64,000 nucleotides of DNA, taken from NCBI GenBank assembly GCA_023475345.1, contig JAMCWD010000041.1, forward strand, positions 1-64,000. Reading direction: 5' to 3'. Positions within the stretch are counted from its first letter, which is position 1. Each line of letters opens with the position of its first letter. Made by a program: the position numbers and the translations under genes. The notes beneath the pieces are model-generated. The model saw only the letters and a program-made list of their open reading frames with translations, was not told the origin of the DNA and did no database searches. This document shows positions 13,587 through 59,152 of this stretch, in pieces. The DNA comes from Chloroflexota bacterium (GTDB lineage Bacteria > Vulcanimicrobiota > JAMCWD01).

Positions 13587-13844
13587 GTGGTTAAGTTCAA
13601 GAAAAACGGCCTTTTAATTATAACCGATTCGAAAGGCAACTGTCATGTCATCGAGGGTACCAGGACGCTGCTTGAGGCCGCGAAGTATATCTGGCAGGAA
13701 GAATCTCTCGACGCTTACCGCATGGATGATAATGAACCGCTGCCCGAATGCGCTTCCATGCTCCTTGCCGAGCTGCCAAAGAATAAACACCAGAGATTGA
13801 GGGATCTCTCCGACCTCAAGGAGGATAAATATTTCCAGGAATGA
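13587..13844 (+). CDS. Unknown 85-residue protein
   Basis: An 85-residue protein I do not recognise. It begins at GTG 13587, because AGGGAGG sits seven to eight bases upstream; the longer open frame would run into the opposite-strand helicase start. It is soluble, with an N-terminal stretch of beta-type pattern (KFKKNGLLIITDSKGNCHVI) and charged helical remainder. Its stop overlaps the start of the methyltransferase gene as ATGA, so it is the first gene of a compact plus-strand operon with the methyltransferase, the FHIPEP-domain protein and rph. Confidence 0.7.
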   Translation: MVKFKKNGLLIITDSKGNCHVIEGTRTLLEAAKYIWQEESLDAYRMDDNEPLPECASMLLAELPKNKHQRLRDLSDLKEDKYFQE

Positions 13845-14617
13845 GCGGCAAAGAGTGGTTTCATAAATTTTTCGGCCCGGAATATTTAGCGATATACGGC
13901 TATCTTTTCGATGAAAAGAAGACCGCAAGACAGCTTGATGTTATACTGCCGATCCTCGATCTTAAAAAAAATTGCAGGATCCTCGATATGCCCTCCGGCT
14001 TCGGCAGGCACAGCCTGGAACTCAAGCGCCGGGGCTATGATGTTACGGGCGTCGATCTGAACGAAGCCCAGCTTGAAAAGGCAAAGGATCTGATGGAAGA
14101 AGCAGGCGTCGAATACCCGCTGATAAAAGGAGATATGAGGAAGATCAAATTCGCCGAAAAATTCGATGCTCTTCTAAACCTCTTTACAAGCTTCGGGTAT
14201 TTTTCCGATGAGGACAACGAAAAGACGGCCGCGAACTTTTATTCCGCACTCAAGCCCGGAGGGCGCATGGCGCTTGAGATAATGAACCGTGACTATATCA
14301 TCGCAAATTATCAGACCTCAGCCTGGCATTATGCGGGCGACAGGCTTTTTGCCCTTGAAGAAAGAAGTTACGACCCTGTTTCCGGCAGGATGAACAACAG
14401 GATGATCCTGGTCGGCCCGGGCACATATCACGAGCAGGAATTCAGCCTGAGGATATACACCCTGAACGAGCTTGTATCTCTTTTTGAAAAGGCTGGCTTC
14501 CGGTACGTCAGGGCTTACGACGGTATGACCGGGCAGGAATTCAGCATCAAATCCGCCCGGCTCCTCCTGGTTATGGAAAAGCCGGGGGTGCCCCGGCGCC
14601 GGAGCCGAAAAAATTAG
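13841..14617 (+). CDS. Class I SAM-dependent methyltransferase
   Basis: A 258-residue methyltransferase with a Rossmann fold. Motif I is ILDMPSGFGRHSLEL near residues 48-62, with acidic loop VTGVDLNEAQL and motif post-I KGDMRKIKF. The C-terminal part is typical of small-molecule or tRNA/protein methyltransferases of the type found next to unknown genes. The substrate cannot be read from the sequence. It overlaps the upstream 85-residue gene by four bases and is followed, 55 bases later, by the FHIPEP-domain gene. Confidence 0.85.
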   Translation: MSGKEWFHKFFGPEYLAIYGYLFDEKKTARQLDVILPILDLKKNCRILDMPSGFGRHSLELKRRGYDVTGVDLNEAQLEKAKDLMEEAGVEYPLIKGDMRKIKFAEKFDALLNLFTSFGYFSDEDNEKTAANFYSALKPGGRMALEIMNRDYIIANYQTSAWHYAGDRLFALEERSYDPVSGRMNNRMILVGPGTYHEQEFSLRIYTLNELVSLFEKAGFRYVRAYDGMTGQEFSIKSARLLLVMEKPGVPRRRSRKN

Positions 14618-14672
14618 ACGCCGTTTTCGCCGGGAAAGCGTCAGGAAAATCAATTTGACGGGAGATGAAAAA

Positions 14673-16004
14673 ATGAGCGACTTGAGAGAACAAAAATTGA
14701 AGATTACCGTACTCGGTTCCGAGAAAGAAGACCTTCTGGATTTCGAACCGTTCGACAACAGGGAGAAGCACACGGTCCTGATGGTCAAGAACGATGAGAC
14801 GGCTTTGCTGGATACGGGGTCTCCCCCCATGCTGGAGCCGGAGATACACAAGCATATCATGAAATTGAGAAACGAAGGATGGGAGATCCTCGGGGAGTTG
14901 AAGCTGGGTTTCCGCGGCAGAGATACCGGCCCCGGTGAGGAGGTGCTTTTCGCATCCGACCCGCTCACTCTCGAGCTTGGCGGTAAGCTACTCCCGCTCC
15001 TGGATCCCGACCAGGGGTCGCCGCTTCTTTCCCGCCTCTCCCTCATCAGGGAAGAGCTTGCAAGAGAGGCCGGGCTTATTATCCCGGGTGCCCGCCTTGC
15101 CGATAACATGAATATGGAAGAGAACCGTTACGTGCTTAAATACCGCGAGATGCCCCTTGCTTCAGGCGAGATTTTCCTCGGCATGCTCCTGGCGATGGGC
15201 GATACAGAACAGCTTGGAAAGCTGAAAGAGGGCTGGAGCACTATCGAACCTTCTTTCAGGATGCAGGCGAAGTGGATCGATGCAAAAGACGAAAAGAAAG
15301 CACAGGAAGCCGGTTGTATGGTTGTCGGGCCGTTGAACGTACTGCTGACGCATGTTAAGACGGCGCTGACGGCAAACGCGCCGGGTCTCCTCGGTCTTCA
15401 GGAGCTTGCGAATATACTCGAACGCCTCGGGGAGACGCATCCCGTAGTTGTCGAGGAGTTCTTCGAAGACAATAAGAAGCTGAGGGCATTGAGGCGGATC
15501 TTGAAAAACCTGCTGGCCGAGCAGGTGTCGATACGGGACATGATCACGATCCTCGAAACGGTCGGGGAACATCTGGATCAGATTGAAAACACTTCCCTTG
15601 TAACGGAGTTTGTACGCATGGCCCTGGGCAGGCAGATATGCCTCCAGTCGGTTGACGAGGAAGGCAGGATCAGGGCGCTTACGGTATCGCCGGAGCTTGA
15701 AAGATATTTGATGGAGTTGATGGAAGAAGGCCCCGGCGGCGTCCGGCTGGCCCTCGGCCCGGAAGATGCAGAGATATTGCTGAAAGCGTTTTCCGAAGCG
15801 TTCAAGGAGCACCAGCCGTGCTGGGCGCTGGTAACCGACCCGCCTACAAGGATTTACTGGAAGCGTCTCCTTGAAAGGGTGCTGCCCAGGATCAGGGTTA
15901 TCTCAACGATGGAGCTTTCGCCAGATGTAAAGATTGAGACCCCGGCGGCGGTTGGCCTGCCGAAGGATCTTAAATCCCAGAAAAGCAAGAAGAAGGACAA
16001 GTGA
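14673..16004 (+). CDS. Soluble FlhA-C (FHIPEP) protein lacking membrane domain
   Basis: A 443-residue protein whose residues about 95-430 match the cytoplasmic domain of FlhA/SctV, the export gate of flagellar and type III secretion systems. Visible family marks are SDPLTLELGGKLLPLLD, IREELAREAGLIIPGARL with DNMNM, IEPSFRMQAKWID, VVGPLNVLLTHV, LLAEQVSIRDMITILET, VTEFVRMALGRQI, and a final PRIRVISTMEL. The eight-helix membrane domain with the FHIPEP motif is absent. Instead an N-terminal 90-residue region of unknown fold precedes the match. No other flagellar or secretion gene is in the window. ATG 14673 follows CGGGAG at eight bases; TTG 14655 is less likely. The C-terminus is a lysine-rich tail. 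Confidence 0.85.
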   Translation: MSDLREQKLKITVLGSEKEDLLDFEPFDNREKHTVLMVKNDETALLDTGSPPMLEPEIHKHIMKLRNEGWEILGELKLGFRGRDTGPGEEVLFASDPLTLELGGKLLPLLDPDQGSPLLSRLSLIREELAREAGLIIPGARLADNMNMEENRYVLKYREMPLASGEIFLGMLLAMGDTEQLGKLKEGWSTIEPSFRMQAKWIDAKDEKKAQEAGCMVVGPLNVLLTHVKTALTANAPGLLGLQELANILERLGETHPVVVEEFFEDNKKLRALRRILKNLLAEQVSIRDMITILETVGEHLDQIENTSLVTEFVRMALGRQICLQSVDEEGRIRALTVSPELERYLMELMEEGPGGVRLALGPEDAEILLKAFSEAFKEHQPCWALVTDPPTRIYWKRLLERVLPRIRVISTMELSPDVKIETPAAVGLPKDLKSQKSKKKDK

Positions 16005-16735
16005 TGATCAGAACCGACGGAAGAAAAAACGACGAACTCCGCCCTTTGAAGATAGTGCGCAACTTTATTCCGAATGCGGAAGGGTCGGTGCTTGTCGAGA
16101 TGGATCTCACGAGGGTTATCTGCACTGCAAGCGTTGAAAGCCGGGTCCCGCCGTGGCTGAAGGATTCGGGTCACGGGTGGGTTACCGCGGAATACGGGAT
16201 GCTCCCGCGATCCACTCTGACAAGGACTCCAAGGGAAAGGTTGTCCCGTTCCGGCAGGACAAGCGAGATACAGAGGCTTATAGGCAGATCGCTTCGCGCG
16301 GTTACGGATCTTGCTAAAATAGGGGACAGGACGGTTACGCTGGATTGTGATGTGATACAGGCGGACGGGGGTACCCGCACGGCGTGCATAACGGGCGCCG
16401 CCATGGCCCTTGCGGACGCTTTTAATATAATGGTGGAGGACGGGGTACTGAAAGAGTTCCCCATGAAAGATCTCGTCGGGGCTGTCAGTGTTGGGATATT
16501 CGAAGACGAGATAATGCTGGACCTGACCTACGAGGAAGATTCCCAGGCCCAGGTGGATTTCAATGTTGTCATGACCGGAGGAGGCCGCCTGGTGGAAGTC
16601 CAGGGGACCTCGGAGAGAGGAACTTTCGGGAGAAGCGAATTGAATTCGATGCTTGATTTTGCGGAAGCCGGGATAAAGAAGCTGGTCTCTGCCCAGAAGG
16701 AAGTACTGGCGGATATCGCCGGCAAATGGTTTTGA
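16004..16735 (+). CDS. rph: Ribonuclease PH
   Basis: A 243-residue RNase PH, the usual length. It is a phosphorolytic 3'-5' exoribonuclease that trims tRNA 3' ends in the cytoplasm, working as a hexamer. The start RTDGRKNDELRP, the SVESRVPPWLKDSGHGW region, PRSTLTRTPRE and CDVIQADGGTRTACITGA are all family signatures. The gene begins at ATG 16004 in a TGATG overlap with the FHIPEP gene, so the two are coupled. A hairpin terminator follows at 16760. The usual partner rdgB is not next to it. Confidence 0.95.
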   Translation: MIRTDGRKNDELRPLKIVRNFIPNAEGSVLVEMDLTRVICTASVESRVPPWLKDSGHGWVTAEYGMLPRSTLTRTPRERLSRSGRTSEIQRLIGRSLRAVTDLAKIGDRTVTLDCDVIQADGGTRTACITGAAMALADAFNIMVEDGVLKEFPMKDLVGAVSVGIFEDEIMLDLTYEEDSQAQVDFNVVMTGGGRLVEVQGTSERGTFGRSELNSMLDFAEAGIKKLVSAQKEVLADIAGKWF

Positions 16736-26108: not shown

Positions 26109-28448
26109 TTATTTCAGTAAACGCAACCCGTTCAGAATAACAATAAGTCCACTCCCCTCGTTAAGAAGAAGACCTGGTACAAGGCCGATTTTCCCTGATA
26201 AAGCAGTGGGAACTAAAAAGATTATAATAAAAAGCGCGGCAAAAATATTCTGCTTAATATTACTGACAGACCTTTTGCTCAAAGAAAATGCATAGGGAAT
26301 CTTCAAGAGGTCATCAGACATAAGGGCGATATCCCCTGTTTCGATTGCTACATCAGTACCACAGGCACCCATGGCAATACCCACATTCGCTTCGGCCATT
26401 GCCGGAGCATCATTTACGCCATCGCCAACCATAGCAATCATTTTATATTTTGCCTTAAGTTCTCTTACTATCTTCACCTTATCTTCCGGCAAGAGATTAG
26501 CCCTGAATTCATCTATGTCCAATTCTTTGGTGATCGCCATTGCCGTCCCTTCGTTATCTCCTGTAAGCATGATTATCTTCTCGAACCCTTTTTCCTTCAG
26601 TTTCTGTATTGCCTCTTTCGCTTCCGGTCTTATCTGATCGGCAATAGCAACTAAACCGAGAATTTCTTCCCCCGTGCCTAATAGCACGGTTGTCTTTCCT
26701 TCATCCTGCAGCCGCCTTATTTCTTCTTTAGCAATGGTTAATCCGCTTACCTTCTCTTTAAACAGAGCTATTGAACCGATATAATAAGTTTGGTCGTTGA
26801 TTTTGGCCTTCGCGCCTCGCCCCGGTATTGCCTCAAAATCACTAATCGATGAGAAAGTAACATCTTTTTCTTTTGCATATTGGACAATGGCATCTCCTAA
26901 AGGATGTTCGGAGCGTGCTTCTATAGAGCCTGCCAATTCCAAGATTTGTTTTTCAGACGCATTATTAATTTTTACTATCTCACAGACTTTTGGCTTTCCG
27001 ATAGTCAAGGTGCCTGTCTTATCAAAAGCTATTGCTTTAAGATTACTTGCCGCCTCTAAATAAGCGCCTCCTTTTATTAAAACGCCGTGTCTGGCTGCGT
27101 TACTGATTGCAGCCACCACTGCCACAGGCACCGATAAAGCCAAACCGCAAGAACAGGAAACTACCAACAGCACAAGCCCGCGATAAAACCAGGAAGAAAA
27201 ATCCTGTTTAAAGAAAAACGGCGCTATAAAAGCAACCAGAAACGCCAGTATAAACATTGCCGGGGTATAATACTTGCCGAATTTTTCTCCGAATCTCTGA
27301 TATGTTGATTTCCTTGCCTGGGTTTCCTCAACAGAATGTATGATCTTAGCCAGTGTTGTGTCCTTGGAGAGCTTGGTTACCTCTACCTCAATTGAACCTC
27401 GCTGATTTATTGAACCGGCATAGACAACGTCTCCTTGTTTTATGTCTTTTGGAATAGATTCTCCGGTAATTGGTGACTCATCGATACTGGTGTCGCCAAA
27501 AATAACCTTTCCATCCAAAGGCACTTTTTCACCCGGCCTGATAATAATTACATCGCCAATAATTATTTCTTCTACAGGGAGAGTCGATTCAGCGCCGTTC
27601 CTTTTTACCAAAGCTTCTCTGGGTGCTAATTCCATTAATGCCCTGATTGAGCCTCTTGCTCTATCCGTAGCATATATTTCCAATACGTCTCCCAGCGAAT
27701 AAATTAAGACAAGCATAGCAGCCTCATTCCAGAATCCAAGAGAGATAGCTCCTGCTGCTCCGCAGACCATAAGAAGGCGTATATTTAAGGTAAACGTCTT
27801 AAGCGCCAAAATTCCCATTCTGGCAGGATAATATCCGCCGATAAGAATAGCTAAAGCATAGACGTATTTTGTGTATTCATGTGGTATACCGAGACGCTCT
27901 AACAGAAAAGCGAGCAGCGTAAATACGCCGCATATCGAAAGGAGCACAAACTGAGTATTCTTCCACAAGACCGCGCCCTTAGCTCTTCCTTTTTGCACCC
28001 TGGATGCCTTCATGCCTGTTTCTGCGATTGCCTTAATTATATCGGTGCCGGAAATCAATGCAGGGTCATACTGGATTTTTACTTCCTGTGATACAAGAAA
28101 AATATTAAAATCTCCAATTCCTTTTAAAACTTTAAGTTTCTTTTCGATGATTTCAGATTCATCGCTACAGTCCATACCTCCTATATGAAGAGTCAAAGTA
28201 TCTCCGGAGACTATCTCTTCTACTCTGTATCCTAATCCGTTAATAGCCTTGATTATCTTTTGAGTATCAAGGCTTCCCTCGATTTCAACCGATAACTTGG
28301 CAGCCTCAAAATTCAGTTTAACTGACTTTACGCCTTTAATCTTTATAACTGCTTTCTCAATACTGGAAGCGCAGTCAAGACAATCCATGCCTTGAATTTC
28401 AAATTCATGAGCTTTGTATTCTTTTATACGCTTAGTATTATTAATCAT
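26109..28448 (-). CDS. P1B-type heavy-metal efflux ATPase, CSC variant
   Basis: A 779-residue heavy-metal ATPase that should pump a soft or transition metal out across the cytoplasmic membrane. The N-terminus has two HMA domains: the first keeps GMDCLDC, while the second reads GMDCSDE and has lost the second Cys. The phosphorylation site is AFDKTGTLTIG, the HP motif SEHPLGDAI, and the ATP hinge MVGDGVNDAPAMAEANVG. The membrane metal site near residue 430 reads SCSCGLALSVP, where most relatives have CPC. The C-terminus NEGSGLIVILNGLRLL is typical of ZntA/CadA pumps. An operator lies just upstream, and the ArsR-type gene precedes it in the operon. Cd, Zn or Pb are plausible substrates. Confidence 0.92.
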   Translation of the reverse strand: MINNTKRIKEYKAHEFEIQGMDCLDCASSIEKAVIKIKGVKSVKLNFEAAKLSVEIEGSLDTQKIIKAINGLGYRVEEIVSGDTLTLHIGGMDCSDESEIIEKKLKVLKGIGDFNIFLVSQEVKIQYDPALISGTDIIKAIAETGMKASRVQKGRAKGAVLWKNTQFVLLSICGVFTLLAFLLERLGIPHEYTKYVYALAILIGGYYPARMGILALKTFTLNIRLLMVCGAAGAISLGFWNEAAMLVLIYSLGDVLEIYATDRARGSIRALMELAPREALVKRNGAESTLPVEEIIIGDVIIIRPGEKVPLDGKVIFGDTSIDESPITGESIPKDIKQGDVVYAGSINQRGSIEVEVTKLSKDTTLAKIIHSVEETQARKSTYQRFGEKFGKYYTPAMFILAFLVAFIAPFFFKQDFSSWFYRGLVLLVVSCSCGLALSVPVAVVAAISNAARHGVLIKGGAYLEAASNLKAIAFDKTGTLTIGKPKVCEIVKINNASEKQILELAGSIEARSEHPLGDAIVQYAKEKDVTFSSISDFEAIPGRGAKAKINDQTYYIGSIALFKEKVSGLTIAKEEIRRLQDEGKTTVLLGTGEEILGLVAIADQIRPEAKEAIQKLKEKGFEKIIMLTGDNEGTAMAITKELDIDEFRANLLPEDKVKIVRELKAKYKMIAMVGDGVNDAPAMAEANVGIAMGACGTDVAIETGDIALMSDDLLKIPYAFSLSKRSVSNIKQNIFAALFIIIFLVPTALSGKIGLVPGLLLNEGSGLIVILNGLRLLK

Positions 28449-28949: not shown

Positions 28950-29038
28950 GGATCTGTGTGAACGTTTCTTTTGCAGGGCAATTCAAGTTGTTGAAATAAT
29001 AAATTTATATGTGATATAATTATTACCAAGAATCGGGG

Positions 29039-29696
29039 ATGGAGTCCCCCCTCATAATTGCCAGGGCCAGGCTGATGACTCCTGCAGCAACGGCTCAATT
29101 ACGGAAGATATTTCGACTTAATTATGTTTCTTCCGCAGGCAATTTTTTTATTGGTCGTTGCCAATCACTTACAAGACAGTCGTTTTTATCGCAGTGCCCC
29201 TTTGTACCGGCGGTACTTCCCGCCTATATAGTGGGGATAGTATTATCTGAATTCTCGAACGGCGATGCCTTCTGGATTCGACGACTTCGCACATTGACAG
29301 TCAGTTTTCTTACCCATTTTTACTTCATTCGCGCGGGAACGTTCGTTTCTCTGGCATCTCTTGTTGCCGCTCCTGCCGTTTTTTTGCTGCTGCTCGGGGA
29401 AAAGTTATGTTTAAGATTTTGGGTTATATCCCGTTATTGGGATGTTTTGCCGCAGGTATGACGAGAGATGGTACTATACACTGATGATGTCCACCGGGTT
29501 GACTTTTGGAACGATATCTGCCCTGTATGGATTCTCCCATAGTATCGTGACACAGGAGCAGTATTCGTTTCTGGTCGCCGTGGTCCTAGCGAGCGCCGTC
29601 ATTCTGACGCTGATCGCAGGGATCGCTTTTTTACCACGCCATCTGTTGCCCGAGCCGGAGATGGCGATTACGACAGCGTCTCAAGAAAACGGTTAG
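29039..29696 (+). pseudogene. Frameshifted CPA2-type cation/proton antiporter remnant
   Basis: The stretch encodes pieces of the C-terminal half of a Kef-type sodium/hydrogen antiporter in three successive frames. They are AYIVGIVLSEF with FWIRRLRTLTVSFLTHFYF and SLASLVAAPAVFLLLLGEK in one frame, KILGYIPLLG in the next around 29400-29440, and DERWYYTLMMSTGLTFGT to the end in the third. At least two frameshifts and the loss of the N-terminal half make it non-functional. It lies next to the acquired metal operon, divergent from it, and may have come with the same segment. Confidence 0.75.
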
Positions 29697-31936: not shown

Positions 31937-33670
31937 ATGATATCAAAGTCTTTGAAAAAAGATCTTGGGGAACTCCTTGTAGAGGAGCAGTTTATTACCG
32001 AGAAACAGCTCCAGAAATCGCTCGAGCAGTCGAAGAAAACGGGCGAATCTCTCCCGCGTGTCCTTGTCAACCTGGGTTTTGTTACCGACAAGGATATTAC
32101 CGAGGTCATCGGTAAACAGATGGGGGTTGAATTCATAGATCTCGAGGAATACGAGATCGATCCGGAGCTTGCCCGTTCAATCCCGGAGCATCTCGCGCAG
32201 AGGTACAAGGTAATACCGGTGGCCCAGAAAGAAAATACTCTGACTTTGGCCATGGTAGATCCACTGAACGTCATAGCAATTGACGATATCCGTCTGATCA
32301 CCGGGTTTGAAATCCAGCCCGTCATTGCGACCGAGGAGGCCATTACCGGCGCAATCAACCGCCAGTACGGCGTGACGGAGCTTGCGGAAGTCCAGGATAC
32401 CGTTAAAGACATCAGCGCCGCAGATTACGGGACGCTGGACATAGAAGAAGCGCAGGAAGAGGAGATTTCGCTTGACAAGCTGAGGGAGCTTGTTGACGAG
32501 GCTCCTATCGTCAGGGTCGTAAACATGATTATCTCACAGGCCATCAATGACAAGGCATCCGATATCCATATAGAGCCTGAAGTAAAAAGCGTTCGCGTAC
32601 GGTACAGGATCGACGGCGTTCTCCATGACGTTATGAGCCCGCCGAAACATATTCAAGCCCCGATGGTATCCCGTGTAAAGATTATGGCGAACATGGACAT
32701 TGCGGAGCGCCGCGTCCCGCAGGATGGCAAGATCCACCTCCGCCACGACAACCGCGAATTCGATCTCCGCGTAAGCACCATCCCCACAATTCACGGGGAA
32801 AAAGTCGTTATGCGTATCCTTGATAAAAGCTCGGTTCTCCTGGGTCTCAACAAGCTGGGCTTTTATCCCGAAACGCAGGGCATCTTCGAGTCCGTAGTGG
32901 AAAAGCCGTACGGCATGATCCTGGTTACAGGTCCTACCGGCTCGGGGAAATCGACCACCCTTTATGCGTGCCTTAACAAGCTGAATACGGGAAACGAAAA
33001 TATAATCACAGTCGAAGACCCGGTGGAGTACCAACTTGCCGGCATAAACCAGGTACAGGTAAACGAGAAAGCCGGCCTTACGTTTGCAAACAGCCTCCGT
33101 TCATTCCTTCGTCAGGATCCTGACAAGATCATGGTCGGTGAGATTCGAGATTTTGAAACTGCCCAGATCGCCGTAGAAGCGGCCCTGACAGGCCACCTTG
33201 TCATGTCCACTCTTCATACGAACGACGCCGCCGGCGCCGTTTCCAGGCTTATTGAAATGGGCATCGAGCCGTTCCTTGTCGCGTCTTCGGTGATCGGCGT
33301 TCTTGCCCAGCGTCTTGTGCGTAATATATGCCCGAACTGTAAAGAGCAATATACGCCCCCGCAGGAAGCAGTAAAGCAGTTCGGTTTCCTCAGCATGGCT
33401 GATACCGAAGTTGTATTTTATCGCGGCCGCGGCTGCGACCACTGCAAGATGACAGGATACCGCGGAAGAACGGGAGTATTCGAACTCCTTGAAATTACCG
33501 ACCGTATCCGCAGCCTTACACTACAACGGTCATCGAGTTCTGAAGTCAGGCAGGCGGCCATTGAAGAAGGCATGAAGACCATGCAGGATGACGGCTTGAG
33601 GAAAGTCGTGGATGGGATAACAACTATTGAAGAATGTCTGCGCGTCATATACGTAGAAGGGGAAATCTAG
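31937..33670 (+). CDS. pilB: Type IV pilus assembly ATPase
   Basis: A 577-residue PilB/GspE ATPase that drives pilus extension. An MshEN N-terminal domain (ELLVEEQFITEKQLQKSLEQ and a second copy) occurs near residues 8-150; such domains often bind c-di-GMP. The ATPase core has Walker A GPTGSGKSTTLY, Asp box EDPVEYQL, Walker B GEIRDFETAQIA and His box STLHTNDAAG. A zinc tetracysteine follows: CPNC near 473 and CDHC near 499. It forms a cytoplasmic hexamer. Next come pilT, a micropeptide frame and pilC in the same operon; no pilin or PilQ gene is present here. Confidence 0.96.
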   Translation: MISKSLKKDLGELLVEEQFITEKQLQKSLEQSKKTGESLPRVLVNLGFVTDKDITEVIGKQMGVEFIDLEEYEIDPELARSIPEHLAQRYKVIPVAQKENTLTLAMVDPLNVIAIDDIRLITGFEIQPVIATEEAITGAINRQYGVTELAEVQDTVKDISAADYGTLDIEEAQEEEISLDKLRELVDEAPIVRVVNMIISQAINDKASDIHIEPEVKSVRVRYRIDGVLHDVMSPPKHIQAPMVSRVKIMANMDIAERRVPQDGKIHLRHDNREFDLRVSTIPTIHGEKVVMRILDKSSVLLGLNKLGFYPETQGIFESVVEKPYGMILVTGPTGSGKSTTLYACLNKLNTGNENIITVEDPVEYQLAGINQVQVNEKAGLTFANSLRSFLRQDPDKIMVGEIRDFETAQIAVEAALTGHLVMSTLHTNDAAGAVSRLIEMGIEPFLVASSVIGVLAQRLVRNICPNCKEQYTPPQEAVKQFGFLSMADTEVVFYRGRGCDHCKMTGYRGRTGVFELLEITDRIRSLTLQRSSSSEVRQAAIEEGMKTMQDDGLRKVVDGITTIEECLRVIYVEGEI

Positions 33671-33691
33671 TAAGGTACAGAGGAGAACAAC

Positions 33692-34789
33692 ATGGCAGTA
33701 GCCGCCTCAGAATCCCTCCGGTTTACAATGGACGAGCTCCTGAAGCTCACGGTTGAGCGGGGTGCTTCCGATCTCCACCTGACGGTGGGATTGCCGCCCA
33801 TGCTCCGCATCAGCGGGAAACTTATTCCCACCGAGTATCGCAGGCTGATGCCCGATGATACAAAGCGGCTCGTTTACAGCATTTTGAACGACAAGCAAAA
33901 AGAGCGTTTTGAAAAGACGTGGGAGTTGGATTGTTCTCACGGGGTCCGCGGGTTCGGCAGGTTCAGGGTAAACGTTTTCCGCCAGCGCGGGGTGGTGGGC
34001 GCGGCTCTCAGGGCGATATCCAGCAGCATACCCACGCGTGAAGAGCTCAACCTTCCCATTGTGCTTGAAGAAATCGTCAAAAGGCCTCACGGCCTGGTGC
34101 TGGTTACAGGTGCAACCGGCATGGGGAAATCTACGACGCTTGCCTGCATGCTTGACCTTATAAACAGCGTCCGCATGTGTCATATCCTGACGATTGAGGA
34201 CCCTATCGAGTACGTACACCCGCATAAGAAGAGCATGGTCAACCAGCGCGAGTTGGGGCAGGATACTCAAACCTGGCACAACTCTCTCAGGGCGGTGCTG
34301 CGAGAGGATCCCGACGTTATCCTGGTAGGCGAGATGAGGGACCTTGAAACCATAGCAGGGACGCTGACCGCCGCCGAAACCGGCCACCTGGTATTTTCAA
34401 CTCTTCATACTTCCGATGCGTGCCAGACCGTTGACCGGATAATAGATGTCTTTCCTCCCCACCAGCAGCAGCAGATCAGGATCCAGCTTTCAAGCGTGCT
34501 GGAGGGAGTATTTTCGCAGCAGTTGATATCTCATGCCAGCGGCGTAGGGCGGGTACCTGCAGTCGAGGTCATGATAACGACCCCCGGAATAAGAAATCTG
34601 ATCAGAGAAGGAAAAACTCATCAAATATATAATGCTTTACAGACGGGTTCCAAATATAAAATGCAGACAATGGAGCAATCGTTATTCGATCTGTATGTTA
34701 ACAAGCAGATAACCTATGAGGATGCGATGGACAGGACGATGCATCCCGAGGAATTGAAAAAAATGATAGACAACGTGGAAAGCGAATAG
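33692..34789 (+). CDS. pilT: Type IV pilus retraction ATPase
   Basis: A 365-residue PilT, the motor that pulls pili back and powers twitching motility. Marks are Walker A GATGMGKSTT, Asp box EDPIEYVHPHKKS, Walker B GEMRDLETIAGTL, His box STLHTSDACQTVDRI and the retraction motif GIRNLIREGK, where most PilT read AIRNLIRE. GAGGAG precedes ATG 33692. The gene lies 21 bases after pilB and 26 bases before a micropeptide frame. The order pilB-pilT-pilC is common. Confidence 0.96.
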   Translation: MAVAASESLRFTMDELLKLTVERGASDLHLTVGLPPMLRISGKLIPTEYRRLMPDDTKRLVYSILNDKQKERFEKTWELDCSHGVRGFGRFRVNVFRQRGVVGAALRAISSSIPTREELNLPIVLEEIVKRPHGLVLVTGATGMGKSTTLACMLDLINSVRMCHILTIEDPIEYVHPHKKSMVNQRELGQDTQTWHNSLRAVLREDPDVILVGEMRDLETIAGTLTAAETGHLVFSTLHTSDACQTVDRIIDVFPPHQQQQIRIQLSSVLEGVFSQQLISHASGVGRVPAVEVMITTPGIRNLIREGKTHQIYNALQTGSKYKMQTMEQSLFDLYVNKQITYEDAMDRTMHPEELKKMIDNVESE

Positions 34790-34815
34790 GCTAAATTGAC
34801 AGGAGGTGAAAAATT

Positions 34816-34875
34816 ATGTGGTGGTGGTTAGTTCCTCTGGCAATTCTTCTGGTCGGTGAGTTGTCAAAGATATAA
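34816..34875 (+). CDS. 19-residue hydrophobic micropeptide between pilT and pilC
   Basis: A short frame ATG-TAA coding for MWWWLVPLAILLVGELSKI. It has a full AGGAGGT ribosome binding site eight bases before the ATG and ends 15 bases before pilC. The peptide is one hydrophobic helix with three N-terminal tryptophans, long enough to lie in or across the cytoplasmic membrane. PilC is a polytopic membrane protein that docks the PilB and PilT motors, so a small membrane partner or translational leader for pilC is plausible. No such peptide is known to me in this operon. The short frame could be chance, but the ribosome binding site is far stronger than chance would suggest. Confidence 0.55.
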   Translation: MWWWLVPLAILLVGELSKI

Positions 34876-34890
34876 GGGGGAGAAGGCAAA

Positions 34891-36117
34891 ATGGCTGTCT
34901 TTGTTTATGAAGCACGAGATGCTTCGGGTCAATTAAGGCGCGATGTTATTGAAGCGCAAAATGTGCGGGCTGCAACACAGAAGCTGCAGGAGCAGAAATA
35001 CACGGTAATAACCATTAAAGAGCGTTCCTCGACGGTGGCAGGCACGGACATACTTGCATTTCTTAACAAGTATCGCCGTGTGAACGATCAGGCGCTGACG
35101 GTATTCAGCCGCCAGTTCGCAACGATGATCAATGCCGGTCTTGCCATGGTCCGGTGCCTGGATATCCTGGCGGAGCAGACCGAGGACAAGAAGCTCCAGC
35201 AGACGCTTGTCCAGGTGCGGCGTGATGTTGAAGGGGGCTCGACCCTTTCCAACGCGCTGGGCAAACATCCCACCGTGTTCAGCACCCTGTATATCAGCAT
35301 GGTAAGGGCCGGGGAATTGGGCGGCGTGCTTGACGAGGTGCTGGACCGCCTTGCGAACTTCATGGAAAAAGATTTCGGCCTCAAGAAGAGGGTGAAGTCG
35401 GCGCTTACTTATCCTGTAGTCATCCTTGTCATGGCAATCGTTATCGTATTTTTCCTGGTTACATATATCCTGCCTACTTTTGTTTCGTTGTTCGAAGGAA
35501 TGAATATGGCGCTGCCTTTGCCTACCAAGATACTTATGGCCGTTACCAAAGGCGTCAGGAAACCGCTGGTGATTATACCTTCGCTGGCCATAATCATTAT
35601 TCTTTTCTTCGGTTTCAACAGGTACGTTCAGACGCCGGTAGGAAGGAAACAGTATGACAGGCTTAAGTTGAGCATCCCCGTCTTCGGCCTGCTGAACAAA
35701 AAGGTGGCCATTTCGCGTTTCTGCCGCACACTGGGCACGCTTCTGTCTTCAGGCGTTCCCATCATGCAGGCGCTGGAAATAGTCGGCAAGGCCTCGGGCA
35801 ATGAAGTTATAGCCGAGACCGTTACCAAGGTGCGCGAGAGCATCCGCGAAGGCGAAAGCATCGCATCTCCTCTCGGCGCAAGCGGTATGTTCCCGCCGAT
35901 GGTTACGCAGATGGTGGCGGTAGGCGAAGAAACAGGTAACCTGGACGCCATGCTTGCAAAAATTTCCGACTTCTATGATACCGAAGTGGAATACATGCTG
36001 GCATCGCTTACGTCCATGCTTGAGCCTATCATGATCGTAGGAATGGGCGCAGTCGTAGGGTTTATCGTTATCGCCGTATTCCTTCCGTTGTACCAGCTTA
36101 TCGGCAGCCTCCATTAA
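34891..36117 (+). CDS. pilC: Type IV pilus inner-membrane platform protein
   Basis: A 408-residue PilC/GspF protein with two T2SSF domains. Each half has the family pattern, e.g. FSRQFATMINAGLAMVRCL near residue 70 and FCRTLGTLLSSGVPIMQAL near 275. Hydrophobic segments lie at about 173-200, 222-245 and 375-400. It couples the motor ATPases to pilin assembly. GGGGGAG and GAAGG before ATG 34891 give a strong ribosome binding site. A hairpin terminator follows at 36152, so it closes the pil operon. Confidence 0.95.
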   Translation: MAVFVYEARDASGQLRRDVIEAQNVRAATQKLQEQKYTVITIKERSSTVAGTDILAFLNKYRRVNDQALTVFSRQFATMINAGLAMVRCLDILAEQTEDKKLQQTLVQVRRDVEGGSTLSNALGKHPTVFSTLYISMVRAGELGGVLDEVLDRLANFMEKDFGLKKRVKSALTYPVVILVMAIVIVFFLVTYILPTFVSLFEGMNMALPLPTKILMAVTKGVRKPLVIIPSLAIIIILFFGFNRYVQTPVGRKQYDRLKLSIPVFGLLNKKVAISRFCRTLGTLLSSGVPIMQALEIVGKASGNEVIAETVTKVRESIREGESIASPLGASGMFPPMVTQMVAVGEETGNLDAMLAKISDFYDTEVEYMLASLTSMLEPIMIVGMGAVVGFIVIAVFLPLYQLIGSLH

Positions 36118-36151: not shown

Positions 36152-36186
36152 GGGCAGAGGTTAGTGATAACCTTTGCCCTTTTTTG
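36152..36186 (+). terminator. Rho-independent terminator after pilC
   Basis: A GGGCAGAGGTTA arm and TAACCTTTGCCC arm form a twelve-base hairpin with one mismatch and a four-base loop, followed by seven T. It ends the pil operon and shows that the sigma factor frame should start downstream, not at an ATG inside this hairpin. Confidence 0.9.
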
Positions 36187-36202
36187 TTGTTGTGAGGATC
36201 GG

Positions 36203-36952
36203 ATGAACGATAAGTCCCTGGGATCCGAACCCGAGGAAGAAATATTTGAAACCTATTCGCGGACGAAAGATCCCGAACTGAAGGACAGGATTATAAAAAG
36301 ATATATGCCGCTTGTCGGGCCGGTGGTCCGCAAGTTTCTTTTCATGGGCGAGTCCGGCGAGGACCTGGCCCAGGTGGGCTATGTCGGCCTTCTGAAGGCC
36401 CTCGAATCATTCGACCCTTATAGAAATGTAAAATTCTCCACTTATGCCACTCACTGTATTTCAGGCGAAGTCCGTCATTACCTGAGGGATAAAGCCGATT
36501 CGATTAAAAAACCCAGGTGGGTAAGAGATCTTTCATATCAAGCATCCGGCTTCATCGACCGCACGCTCCAGGAAAAAAACCGCCTCCCGACCGCCAGGGA
36601 AATCTCGGAAGAGCTCGATATAAGCGAGGAAGAAGCGCTCGAAATTTTGAAAGTTAGAAGCCTCGTTTCCCTCGATGAGGGAATAGTAACGCGGAAAGGC
36701 GATACCGTCGAAAGATCCGATACTGTAAAATCCGATGCGCAGAGACCCGGAGTCGAAGAGAGAATAGTCCTGGAACAGGCTATGGATGAACTGAAAGCTA
36801 AAGAGAAATCAATCGTATATTATTTCTTTTACATGGACCTGACACAGACCCAGATAGCCGAGAAAATCGGCATGTCTCAAAAAAAAGTCTCACGCATGCT
36901 GAAAAAAGCTTTGAAAAAGATGAAAGACATCCTGACAAAGGAAGTCTGGTAA
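36203..36952 (+). CDS. Sigma-70 family factor, SigB/SigF/WhiG-like
   Basis: A 249-residue sigma factor with regions 2, 3 and 4 and no region 1. Region 2 reads EDLAQVGYVGLLKALESF and VKFSTYATHCISGEVRHYL, the form found in group 3 factors such as SigB, SigF and WhiG. Region 3 reads LPTAREISEELDISEEEAL and region 4 ends in the helix-turn-helix QTQIAEKIGMSQKKVSRML. It should steer RNA polymerase to a special set of promoters (stress, development or motility). ATG 36203 with GAGGA is preferred, because a longer frame from 36164 would begin inside the pilC terminator. No anti-sigma gene is adjacent. Confidence 0.9.
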   Translation: MNDKSLGSEPEEEIFETYSRTKDPELKDRIIKRYMPLVGPVVRKFLFMGESGEDLAQVGYVGLLKALESFDPYRNVKFSTYATHCISGEVRHYLRDKADSIKKPRWVRDLSYQASGFIDRTLQEKNRLPTAREISEELDISEEEALEILKVRSLVSLDEGIVTRKGDTVERSDTVKSDAQRPGVEERIVLEQAMDELKAKEKSIVYYFFYMDLTQTQIAEKIGMSQKKVSRMLKKALKKMKDILTKEVW

Positions 36953-54415: not shown

Positions 54416-57400
54416 ATGCCTGAAATTACATCTGCATCACTTCAAAAGTTCAGCACCCTGGTAAAACTGAACCCGGAGGACCCGGAAGCACATTTTGGGC
54501 TCGGGCTTGCTTATGAGGAGTCCGAAAATATGATCGAGGCGTTCAAGGAGTTCGAGCAGGCCGCAAAGCTCAACCCTCGTCATGCGCGGGCATACCTCCA
54601 CATGGGGTTCCAGTTCGCCAGGTCGAATGAGCTGGTAAGGGCCATCCAGTCCTGGAGGAGGGCATGGGAGATAGATCCGGATATTTATGAAACCGTGATA
54701 ATGGACCCGTCCCATGCGGCATACTACAGGAAAAGGATCGAACAGGCCGTCGCCCGGTTCGAAAAACCGATATCCATTAACGCGGAAGATTCGTTCGCGC
54801 ACTTCCAGCTTGCAATGGCATACAAGTTTTTCAACAAGCTGGAAATTGCGTTACAGGGTTTCCAGCGGTCGATAGAGATTAACCCGAAGTTATGGGAAGC
54901 TTATGATAACGCAGGCCAGATCCTGCTCAAGCTGGGACAGAGCAACCTTGCGACCAGGTACTTCCAGAAAGCGGTCGCCGAAAACGACAAGTATCCCGAG
55001 GGCTATTACAACCTCGGCTATGCTTACGAGCTTGAAAACATGCTGGCCCTGGCTCTCAAAAATTACGAAAAGGCCATCGAGCTCGACAAAGACGAGGCCC
55101 GTTACCATCATGCGATGGGGAGGATCTACTCCCTCCAGGGCAGGCACAACTTCGCAATGAAGTGTTTCCAGAAAGCGATAGACCTCGACCCCGACAACCC
55201 GGTTTATCATTATGATCTCGCCCAGGCATGCCTGAACATGTACCAGCCCAAGTTTGCAGTCGTAGAATTTGAAAAGGCGATAAAACTCGACCCCAAATAT
55301 ACAGAGGCTTATTACCAGCTCGGCATCACTTATCTCCAACTTGGAGACGTCCAGCAGGCAATAAAACACCTCGAAGAATCTATTAAAAATAATGCCGCCG
55401 ATCCTTACGCCCATTATAACCTTGCCACCGCGTACATGAGGACCGGGAAAATAGAAAAAGCCATAAATCATTTCTATACTTCGATTTCGCTGAACCCGAA
55501 AGACGCTTATGCTCATTACAACCTTGCGGGATTATATGCCAGGAGCGGAATGCTGGAAGAGGCTATCGGAGAATACAGGGCGGCTTTGAAGCTGAATCCG
55601 AATGATGCAAGCGCCCACTTCGACCTTGCAAAAACATACCTTTCGAAGGGCAATCTCGACGGCGCGCTGGAAGAGCTTGAGGCGACGTTATCCCTGAACC
55701 CGAACGACATCGACGGCAGGATGGAAATATCCAGGGTGCTGATGAAGAAAGGCGAAATATCCCGCGCCATAGAAAGCCTTCGCAAAGCCGTTGAAATCGA
55801 GCCGGACAATCCCGACGCCCACTACGAGCTGGGCAAAGCCTTCCTCCAACTGGAAGAAGCCGATTATGCGCTCGAATCTCTCCGGAAAGCCATCGTACTG
55901 GATCCCAAGCACGGCGGGGCATTGCATACCATGGGCCTCGTTTACAGGGAACTGTTGAAGAAGTCCGACCAGGCCATGGATTATTTCAAGCAGGCGCTTG
56001 CGGTTAACTCCGGCTACGTGCCAGCAATGATAGACCTGGGCGTTATTTATCGCGATACAGGCGATGTCCCGAGGAGCAAGGAAATTATCGAGTCTGCCCT
56101 CGAGCTTGAGCCGGACAACTCCGATGCCATATCCCAGTATGCCTTCACCCTGCTCGCCGAAGGCGACAGCGAAGGGGCGATAGACCGCCTCCTCAAGGCC
56201 GTCGCTCTCAAGCCCAACGACGCCATGATGAGGATCAAGCTCGGCAGGTTGTACAAGGAACTGGAAAAATACGAATCGGCCCTTACCCAGTACGAAAAGG
56301 CCGTCGGCTTCATACCGAACAACATCGATTTCCGTCTCGAACTTGCGGATATCTATAACAGGGTCGGGCGCAAGGATCAGGCGATAACCCAGCTTAATAA
56401 GATCCTTGAGATAGAGCCGGAACACCAGGAAGCGTTCAGGATCCTGGAAGAGATTTACGAAGAAACCGAGGGCAAAGCGCCTAAGGCGAAAGAAGAAGTT
56501 ATCCCGCTTGCCGAACCTAAGGCCGGGGAAAAAGCCGCCAGGGCCGAAGCACCTGCCGAAAAGAAGAAAGAGGAAGAGAAGCCCATCGATCCCGAGTTCC
56601 AGGAAGGCATGATGCTTTTCGGCACCGGCAAGACCTCGCGGGCCAGGGAATTTTTCAACCGCGTCATCAGGAAAGACAGTTCTTTTTATCCTGCATACTT
56701 CTATCTCGGGTTCCTTGCGCGAAGCGACGAGAGGCTTGACCAGGCCGCCGATTATTATAAGCACGGCTTGTCTCTTGCCGAAAGGGTCGAGGACAGGGAT
56801 TTCTCCCGCCTCTTCAATACGGAGCTTGACACGCTGCGGGCCCAGTCCGACAGTATCCGCCTCGATACCGAAACGGTCGATACCGCCGAAGCTTATTTCC
56901 GCGAAGCGCTGACCGCCCTTTCAGGCGGTAAAATCCAGAAGTCTAAAGAATTTCTCAAGAAAGCGCTCGAGAAAAAAGGCGGGCATTATCCTTCGCTTTA
57001 CACTCTAGGGCTTCTGGCCCGCTCCGAAAGAGACATGGATGCCGCCAGGAAATATTTCCAGCAGGCCCATGTATATGCCGAAGCGGCCAGGGATACCGAG
57101 TTCCTTGTTCTTCTCTCAAATGAACTGGAAGCTCCGGCGCCTGCCGTAGCCGGGGGAGAGGCCGCCGCCGGATCGCCGAAAGAAGAAAAGGCGGTGGAGA
57201 TAACCCCCCAGTTTCTTTTCCGCGAAGCGCTCGATGTTTTCGGGAAAGGCGAACTCGATACGGCCCGGAACATGTTTAATAAGGTAATGGAAAAAGGTGG
57301 CCCGGTTTCTTCTTCGACCTATTACCTGGGCGTCATTTCAAGGCTCGAGAGAAACGAAGAGGAAGCCCTGAATTATTTCAACAGGGGTCTGAAAGCCGCA

Positions 57401-59152
57401 GAAGAAACAGGCGACGTAGAATTCCAGCTTCTTTTATCCGATGAGATAAAATCTTTCGACTCGGTCAAAGAGCTTGTCAAAGTAAAACAGGAAGCCGGCG
57501 AAATAAGGGACAAGCTGGAAAGCCGTTTAAAATCGCTGGAAGCCGAAAAAGACGAGCTTGAATCGGATCTTGAAAAATCACAGAAACAAGAATCCGAATT
57601 CAAGGAAAAAATATCGAAGCTTCAGGCCCAGCTTGACAGGGAAGCCACAAGTGTTGACAACCTGGTGAAACAGGCGCGGGCCGAGGCCGAAGACGCAAAG
57701 GGAAAAACCTCGGAGCTTGAAGACAAGATCCTTAAACTCTCCGAGCAGATGAAAAAAGAGAGGGAAGAGATGGAAGCCAAGGTCGCCGGGGCCGGGACAG
57801 TCGAAGTTCCGGTATCGCTCGAAGACCTGCCGAAATACGAATCACTCTTCCGCGAAGGGGTTGCGTTATACAGTGCAGGCAAGCTGCGTAACGCGGCCGG
57901 GAGGTTCGAAGAATCGCTGAAGGAAAATTCCGGATACTATCCCGCCCATTACTTCATGGGCCTTATATCGAAAGCGTCCCGGAAAAACGATGAGGCCCTG
58001 GGTCACTTCAAATCAGGCCTTGCAGGGGCAGAAAAGAAGAGCGACAGGGATCTCCAACTCCTGTTCAATTCCGAGATCGACGGGCTGGAAGGCGGAAAAT
58101 CGCTGACGGAAAAAGAAGAGAAACTTGTAAAAGAGATCCAGTCCCTCCGGAAAGATATCGATGCGGCAAAAGCCGCGGCCGATAAAGCTCATGCCGAAGC
58201 GGAAGCTGCAAAAGCCAGGGCGGCTGAAGCCCCGGTACGCGCTGAAGCCGTAAAGCCTGTTTCGGCCAAAGTCGAAGACGACGTCAAAGACAACCTGACT
58301 CTTGCGAAGGAATTCATCGAGATAGGGAAGCTCGACCGCGCAAGGTTCCGCCTCGAAAGGGTGCTGACGCTGGATCCCAATAACCTCGATGCCAACAGGA
58401 TCCTGGGCGACTTCTACTTCCAGGAAGGCGAGCTTGAAAAAGCCGCTAAATGCTGGAAGCGGACCCTCCAGATGGATCCTTCAGCCATAGAGCTTTACCT
58501 GAAACTGGGCGATGTCATGGAGCGCCTGGGCCGTTATCCCGAAGCCATCGAGAACCTGCTCGAATACAGGATGAACGTCCCCGACAGCCTGGATGTCCAG
58601 GTACGTCTCGCAGATCTGTATGTCCTGGACAAGCGTTACCGCGATGCTATACTCGCTTACCAGGATCTTCTGAAAACGGAAGCGGAAGCCCACGACATAA
58701 TTTGTAAGCTGGCCCGCACTTATAACCTTGCGGAAAAATACGCGCTTGCCGCAATGCAGGCACAGAAGGCGCTGCGCAAAAAAGAAGATACCCCGGCCCT
58801 CATAGAGCTTGCCGTCGCATACTATAACATGGACAAAAACGACGAGGCCCTGAAGGCCGCTCAGAAAGCCATGGAAAAATTGCCCGGCAACGCCGACGCG
58901 AAAAAGATCTACGATAAGATCACCGGCCCTAAAGCAGGTAAAAAAGAAGAGAAAAAAGCCGAGAAGACCGAAAAGGAAAAACCGGCGGAAAAAATCCTGG
59001 AATCGATTGAAGAGGCGGTTGAAGAAGTCCTTGATGAAGCCGAGGAATTCCTGGAAGAAGTCGAGGAAGAATTAAAAGATAAAGGGACCGCCGTATCTGA
59101 AAAATCCGAGGAATCAAAGGCTCAGAAAAAAAAGAAAAAGAGAAGGAGATAA
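54416..59152 (+). CDS. Giant TPR protein with four repeated modules
   Basis: A 1578-residue protein made mainly of tetratricopeptide repeats. About 18 TPRs fill residues 10-690 (e.g. DPYAHYNLATAYMRTGKIEK). Three copies of a special module of about 85 residues follow at about 722-810, 821-905 and 931-1015. A coiled coil spans about 1015-1130, a fourth module 1140-1225, a short Ala-rich coiled coil 1228-1275, and a second TPR block 1290-1500. An acidic then lysine-rich tail closes the protein. No signal peptide or membrane helix is visible. It is probably a cytoplasmic scaffold; its partners are unknown. GTGGGAGAG precedes ATG 54416. A terminator-like hairpin follows. Confidence 0.88.
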   Translation: MPEITSASLQKFSTLVKLNPEDPEAHFGLGLAYEESENMIEAFKEFEQAAKLNPRHARAYLHMGFQFARSNELVRAIQSWRRAWEIDPDIYETVIMDPSHAAYYRKRIEQAVARFEKPISINAEDSFAHFQLAMAYKFFNKLEIALQGFQRSIEINPKLWEAYDNAGQILLKLGQSNLATRYFQKAVAENDKYPEGYYNLGYAYELENMLALALKNYEKAIELDKDEARYHHAMGRIYSLQGRHNFAMKCFQKAIDLDPDNPVYHYDLAQACLNMYQPKFAVVEFEKAIKLDPKYTEAYYQLGITYLQLGDVQQAIKHLEESIKNNAADPYAHYNLATAYMRTGKIEKAINHFYTSISLNPKDAYAHYNLAGLYARSGMLEEAIGEYRAALKLNPNDASAHFDLAKTYLSKGNLDGALEELEATLSLNPNDIDGRMEISRVLMKKGEISRAIESLRKAVEIEPDNPDAHYELGKAFLQLEEADYALESLRKAIVLDPKHGGALHTMGLVYRELLKKSDQAMDYFKQALAVNSGYVPAMIDLGVIYRDTGDVPRSKEIIESALELEPDNSDAISQYAFTLLAEGDSEGAIDRLLKAVALKPNDAMMRIKLGRLYKELEKYESALTQYEKAVGFIPNNIDFRLELADIYNRVGRKDQAITQLNKILEIEPEHQEAFRILEEIYEETEGKAPKAKEEVIPLAEPKAGEKAARAEAPAEKKKEEEKPIDPEFQEGMMLFGTGKTSRAREFFNRVIRKDSSFYPAYFYLGFLARSDERLDQAADYYKHGLSLAERVEDRDFSRLFNTELDTLRAQSDSIRLDTETVDTAEAYFREALTALSGGKIQKSKEFLKKALEKKGGHYPSLYTLGLLARSERDMDAARKYFQQAHVYAEAARDTEFLVLLSNELEAPAPAVAGGEAAAGSPKEEKAVEITPQFLFREALDVFGKGELDTARNMFNKVMEKGGPVSSSTYYLGVISRLERNEEEALNYFNRGLKAAEETGDVEFQLLLSDEIKSFDSVKELVKVKQEAGEIRDKLESRLKSLEAEKDELESDLEKSQKQESEFKEKISKLQAQLDREATSVDNLVKQARAEAEDAKGKTSELEDKILKLSEQMKKEREEMEAKVAGAGTVEVPVSLEDLPKYESLFREGVALYSAGKLRNAAGRFEESLKENSGYYPAHYFMGLISKASRKNDEALGHFKSGLAGAEKKSDRDLQLLFNSEIDGLEGGKSLTEKEEKLVKEIQSLRKDIDAAKAAADKAHAEAEAAKARAAEAPVRAEAVKPVSAKVEDDVKDNLTLAKEFIEIGKLDRARFRLERVLTLDPNNLDANRILGDFYFQEGELEKAAKCWKRTLQMDPSAIELYLKLGDVMERLGRYPEAIENLLEYRMNVPDSLDVQVRLADLYVLDKRYRDAILAYQDLLKTEAEAHDIICKLARTYNLAEKYALAAMQAQKALRKKEDTPALIELAVAYYNMDKNDEALKAAQKAMEKLPGNADAKKIYDKITGPKAGKKEEKKAEKTEKEKPAEKILESIEEAVEEVLDEAEEFLEEVEEELKDKGTAVSEKSEESKAQKKKKKRRR

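Follow-up and report, generated by a model that had tools for sequence, protein, structure and literature searches.

The first 64,000 nucleotides of contig JAMCWD010000041.1 (this whole stretch is called the window below) encode on the plus strand, at 14673..16004, a soluble protein of 443 amino acids that is a complete FlhA cytoplasmic docking domain (FlhA-C) without the membrane part. In known systems, FlhA-C makes up the cytoplasmic side of a ring anchored in the membrane, while in this clade it exists throughout as a protein of its own that is under selection. The FHIPEP profile (PF00771) matches the protein with 254.6 bits (cut-off 29.1) over positions 328-656 of 657, and the cytoplasmic domain is therefore whole and the membrane part absent. 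No stretch of 19 residues in the protein reaches 1.6 on the Kyte-Doolittle scale; eight such segments are found in the full-length FlhA of the same genome. The reading frame is real and runs from an ATG at 14673 to a stop codon at 16002-16004. A GGGAGAT stretch is found immediately 5' of this ATG, and a TTG at 14655 is an alternative start. The original prediction, made from the DNA sequence of the window, of a standalone FlhA cytoplasmic domain was thus right in both frame and coordinates. The search with the FHIPEP profile, which it had proposed as a check, gave the strong match described above.

Profile match, alignment and fold comparison agree on the FlhA-C fold. Residues 93-419 (14949..15929) make up the domains D1-D4, and a structure comparison with FlhA-C (solved e.g., as 6ch1, 3a5i, and 3mix) gave the same, whole four-domain fold, as had been expected. 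The fold is also that of the cytoplasmic domain of SctV (CdsV, YscV, MxiA), but the protein scores higher with the FlhA model than with the SctV model (262.9 vs 135.5 bits). The protein may work like FlhA-C, yet it is not FlhA, because the membrane domain is absent and the NCBIfam FlhA equivalog cut-off of 772.1 bits is not reached. It further differs from FlhA-C in having an N-terminal domain of its own and in being encoded outside a flagellar operon. PHROGs gave one match, to a family of unknown function, covering the FlhA-C part. Most orthologues in public records are unnamed, and those that are named are called FHIPEP family type III secretion protein or FlhA.

Residues 1-92 (14673..14948) form the domain that replaces the membrane domain, and the original prediction of about 90 residues of another kind at this position is supported. 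A Pfam scan of the first 104 residues alone gave nothing at E<=10. The N-terminal domain is conserved; ten columns are invariant in an alignment of 16 rows, including F24, P26, G49, G69, W70, G74, F80, and G82. It is predicted to consist of strands, a helix and a strand, in a model of low confidence with a predicted local distance difference test score (pLDDT) of 63.8. No PDB sequence matched the domain at E<=10, and with this low-confidence model as query no PDB fold matched at E<=0.001, the best E being 0.23. DUF4177 (PF13783) is a weak lead, matching one of 16 family members (E 0.0033) and not the window protein; it was matched in one of 28 genomes. When a profile of the N-terminal domain was run against 38 genomes, one strong match was obtained in each of the 19 that have an orthologue, and this was always the soluble gene itself; G003 gave two weak matches (E 0.01 and 0.06). 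The ratio of nonsynonymous to synonymous substitution rates (dN/dS) is lower in the N-terminal 100 codons than in the rest of the gene in each of seven close pairs, and the domain is therefore no mere leftover.

A family profile built from 24 orthologues was run on 149 genomes of the phylum, and full-model matches (450-700 bits) were found in 26 of them, with one copy each. These are all 26 genomes of nine families (f1, f2, f7, f9-f13, and f15), while the profile search found no orthologue in the 123 genomes of f3-f6, f8, f14, and f16. Sequence identity between the window protein and its orthologues is 33-45%, with one exception at 73%. In a tree of 81 rows, 23 of the 26 form one clade with an SH-like approximate likelihood ratio test value (SH-aLRT) of 100. 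The family is under purifying selection; dN/dS is 0.02-0.08 in all seven close orthologue pairs, although three of these values are rough because dS exceeds 1. The named relatives (UBP9 UBA6111, UBA1432, CPR1, several Candidatus Eremiobacterota metagenome-assembled genomes, and rumen metagenome-assembled genomes, with a few labelled otherwise, e.g., as Bacillota) assign the group to Candidatus Eremiobacterota. Going by these names, the clade is probably the Xenobia side of this phylum.

In Salmonella FlhA, the cleft between D1 and D2 (L438, I440, P442, D456, F459, L461, V482, V487, and T490) is described as the dimple that takes chaperones (PMC5932034, PMC10965912). Judged from the alignment, most of the residues forming this dimple are kept in the soluble family, in line with the original prediction of a retained docking domain. 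Positions 438 and 440 are hydrophobic, 456 is acidic, and 487 is V or I in all 24 orthologues, while 459 is aromatic and 490 is T in 21, 461 is kept in 20, and 482 in 19. Eight of the nine positions are thus retained in 19-24 of 24 orthologues. Of 22 further FlhA-C rows from the phylum, 21 have an acidic residue at 456 and 19 an aromatic one at 459.

Secretion genes are present in the source genome, an assembly of 71 contigs totalling 3.25 Mb with a completeness of 86%: contig C70 bears an intact full-length flhA (852 bits), and C59 encodes a second soluble FlhA-C protein. At its left end (L108:1-9803), C70 encodes FliK, two FlgE/F/G-like proteins (one above cut-off), FliM, FliN, FliO, FliP, FliQ, FliR, FlhB, and FlhA, where FliR is named by position alone. 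The left end of C31 (L157:1-7859) encodes a rod protein, FliF, FliG, FliH, FliI, FliJ, and a lytic transglycosylase. The two clusters may be one operon, as both reach a contig end. The name type A is given to the gate of this genome and to the 12 gates akin to it in the tree, and for the type A machine of this genome FliF, FliG, FliM/N, FliHIJ, FliPQR, FlhB, FlhA, and rod proteins were all found. Full machine clusters were annotated in this genome, and a similar order of frames was seen in G030 and G016. The soluble gene is on a third contig, C36, apart from the secretion loci as had been predicted. The original prediction also stated that the 64 kb contain no flagellar or type III gene; a whole-genome search with seven such families gave the soluble gene as the sole match inside the window, so the statement is valid locally but not for the genome, which encodes a flagellar-type type III secretion system (T3SS) on C31 and C70. 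A single-protein scan of the genome contigs gave 33 stretches, none of which was confirmed.

No match to flagellin, FliS, FlgN, FliD, or MotB_plug was found in this 86% complete genome, the only one searched for FlgN. Of the 38 genomes searched, 19 have the orthologue, and in 15 of these, among them the source genome, neither flagellin nor FliS nor FliD was found. G006, G010, G016, and G017, with a completeness of 97-98%, are among the flagellin-less ones. MotB_plug is above cut-off, with low scores, in three of the 15 (G010, G014, and G034). The finding points to a filament-less flagellar-type secretion machine.

Our tentative proposal, to which we give a little less than an even chance, is that the soluble protein is a cytosolic adaptor bringing chaperone-cargo complexes to the flagellar-type secretion machine of this genome, in which flagellin was not found. 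The dimple would meet chaperoned cargo in the cytosol and might still bind helical chaperones, other than FliS or FlgN. The N-terminal domain would replace the membrane anchor as a module for partner binding or self-assembly, recruiting or assembling, and the cargo would then be handed over to the ring of full-length FlhA. In 45 pairs from ten genomes the FlhA-C of the gate is on average 84.8% identical (79.5-95.7), while the mean is 42.9% (32.8-67.5) for the soluble copy in the same pairs. That the soluble copy diverges fast while the gate evolves very slowly would be in keeping with an adaptor tracking changing cargo. The gene also offers a natural experiment on the working of the docking platform once it is separated from the membrane.

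Several observations weigh against an adaptor. Only two of 24 orthologues have kept the dimple proline P442, which the other 22 have lost. The nine dimple columns are not significantly more conserved than random columns (P 0.09), though the same test is not significant in 12 full-length FlhA either (P 0.07). A Trp like W354 is absent from the 22 residues preceding the domain in all 23 readable rows of 24, which bears on the ability to form rings. FliS and FlgN were not found in the source genome, and no cognate chaperone is known there. Four of the 19 orthologue genomes (G008, G012, G026, and G032) do have flagellin, FliS, and FliD. The co-occurrence of the soluble gene and the type A machine mirrors the relationships among the genome families and is therefore not independent evidence. 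The gene is found outside any secretion locus with RNase PH as recurrent neighbour, which could mean an RNA-linked job. Finally, in the 81-row tree, which includes long-branched fusion proteins, the soluble clade does not join the type A gate but is placed closer to conventional FlhA.

A second tree, of 57 rows, gave another result; a branch with an SH-aLRT of 96.7 has the soluble family (23 rows) and the type A gates (13 rows) on one side and, on the other, 10 conventional FlhA from within the phylum together with 11 FlhA from outside it. Both trees are derived from 107 domain hits, 11 of which were dropped as shorter than 230 residues. Another 15 were dropped before the 81-row tree, namely the near-copies L044, L116, and L117 among the orthologues, the type A gates L018 and L021, four short or partial fusions, and six outgroup rows. 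The 57-row tree is further without five SctV-like full-length rows, 18 other FlhA-C rows, and one outgroup row. It is preferred over the 81-row tree, but the origin of the soluble clade is not settled.

The grouping with the gate in one of the two trees, together with the shared fold, would also suit a gate regulator, where the soluble copy joins or caps the ring of full-length FlhA, or competes for chaperones, and so tunes export rather than feeding it. Subunits of FlhA-C and SctV-C are described as forming nonameric rings in solved structures (PMC8213127). However, gate and soluble copy are only 31-40% identical within one genome (ten genomes), and the linker Trp is missing in every readable row. 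We regard such a regulator as unlikely.

A job outside secretion, in which the FlhA-C fold has been co-opted for a cytosolic role linked to RNase PH such as the scaffolding of RNA processing, is somewhat less probable again. It is suggested by the neighbouring gene rph (16001..16735, plus strand; TIGR01966, 342.8 bits), whose start, a GTG at 16001 or an ATG at 16004, overlaps the stop codon of the soluble gene in the window. Furthermore, in 16 of 26 orthologue genomes, representing seven of nine families, rph follows the soluble gene in the same orientation at a distance of at most 0.4 kb. In G034 a CutA gene is found between the two. However, rph is on a different contig in seven of the ten genomes where the genes are unlinked, and no RNase PH above the family cut-off was found in G019, G022, and G024 (86-90% complete) where the soluble gene is kept. 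The protein therefore seems to be independent of RNase PH.

An accessory role in a conventional flagellum, as a chaperone buffer for flagellin export, is improbable. The largely kept dimple and the four orthologue genomes with flagellin, FliS, and FliD would be in keeping with it, but the 15 of 19 genomes that show none of these largely refute it. Moreover, flagellin is above cut-off in five of 13 sampled genomes of f8, f14, and f16, none of which has a soluble FlhA-C. That the gene is a relic, a broken flhA or a contig artefact, as the profile match confined to the C-terminal half and an in-frame stop in the orthologue of G020 (69% complete) might suggest, is refuted by the flhA intact elsewhere, on C70 and not interrupted just upstream, by the 26 genomes with the same architecture, and by the low dN/dS.

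The FlhA-C domain has spread into many fusions in this one phylum. At least one FlhA-C protein without membrane part is found in 23 of 25 sampled genomes from 13 families outside f8, f14, and f16, the exceptions being G013 (67% complete) and G004 (fragments only), while none was seen in the 13 sampled genomes of these three families (both counted by eye). Among 19 long or unusual FlhA-C proteins that were scanned, FliG_N is above cut-off in seven, strong tetratricopeptide repeats (TPRs) are found in four, and ankyrin repeats and FlhB_C in one each. Fusions to FliG_N, TPR or ankyrin repeats are found at L050, L054, L056, L057, L061, L063, L064, L065, and L068-L071, and L064 encodes a protein of 1941 amino acids with three FlhA-C stretches. 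The second soluble protein of the source genome (C59:3537-4823, L053, minus strand, 428 amino acids) has a stretch similar to the C-terminus of FlhB (E 2.3e-10) joined to an FlhA-C without most of D2, the part bearing much of the dimple. Several relatives have similar two-part FlhA-C matches.

It is conceivable, if rather doubtful, that a third kind of type III machine operates in the phylum, namely a filament-less flagellar-type basal body with soluble gate copies carrying interchangeable heads (the N-terminal domain of the window protein, TPR, ankyrin, FliG_N, and FlhB_C). These copies would be detachable docking ports, each for its own cargo, with the window gene as a clade-wide core member. 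Besides FlhA-C and SctV, two more known systems come close. Standalone FlhB C-terminal proteins (NCBIfam TIGR00789), also called FlhX, are likewise a cytoplasmic domain of the export gate apart from its membrane part, but the domain of the window protein is that of FlhA and not FlhB, and in the protein on C59 an FlhB_C-like stretch is fused with part of FlhA-C. The non-flagellar T3SS of Myxococcales is similarly flagellum-derived and without motility parts, and is described as lacking FlgBCDEK, FliEG, FlgH, and MotAB (Abby and Rocha, 2012, PMC3459982), while the type A machine, known from its genes, keeps FliG and a rod protein. A literature search, covering titles and the openings of abstracts with most subscription journals outside it, found no account of standalone FlhA-C proteins or of a T3SS in this clade.

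An S-adenosylmethionine-dependent methyltransferase (PF13649) is encoded upstream of the soluble gene at 13841..14617 on the plus strand. The original prediction had suggested it as a coupled partner, but this is not supported, as tblastn of the examined flanks, some of them short, found it near none of the 25 other orthologues; the recurrent neighbour is RNase PH. The methyltransferase is thus a local neighbour outside the conserved unit. A pairing with it or with an open reading frame of 137 amino acids was also rejected on blastp against the frames of loci up to L112, which matched the window's own sequence only.

Elsewhere in the window, a heavy-metal P-type ATPase with an HMA domain is encoded at 26109-28448 on the minus strand, and a fluoride riboswitch aptamer is found at 29026-29091 (Rfam RF01734, 44.7 bits). 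Type IV pilus-type genes at 31937-36117 encode two T2SSE ATPases (PilB- and PilT-like) and a T2SSF protein, and are followed by a sigma-70 family factor at 36164-36952. A TPR protein of 1578 amino acids is encoded at 54416-59152.
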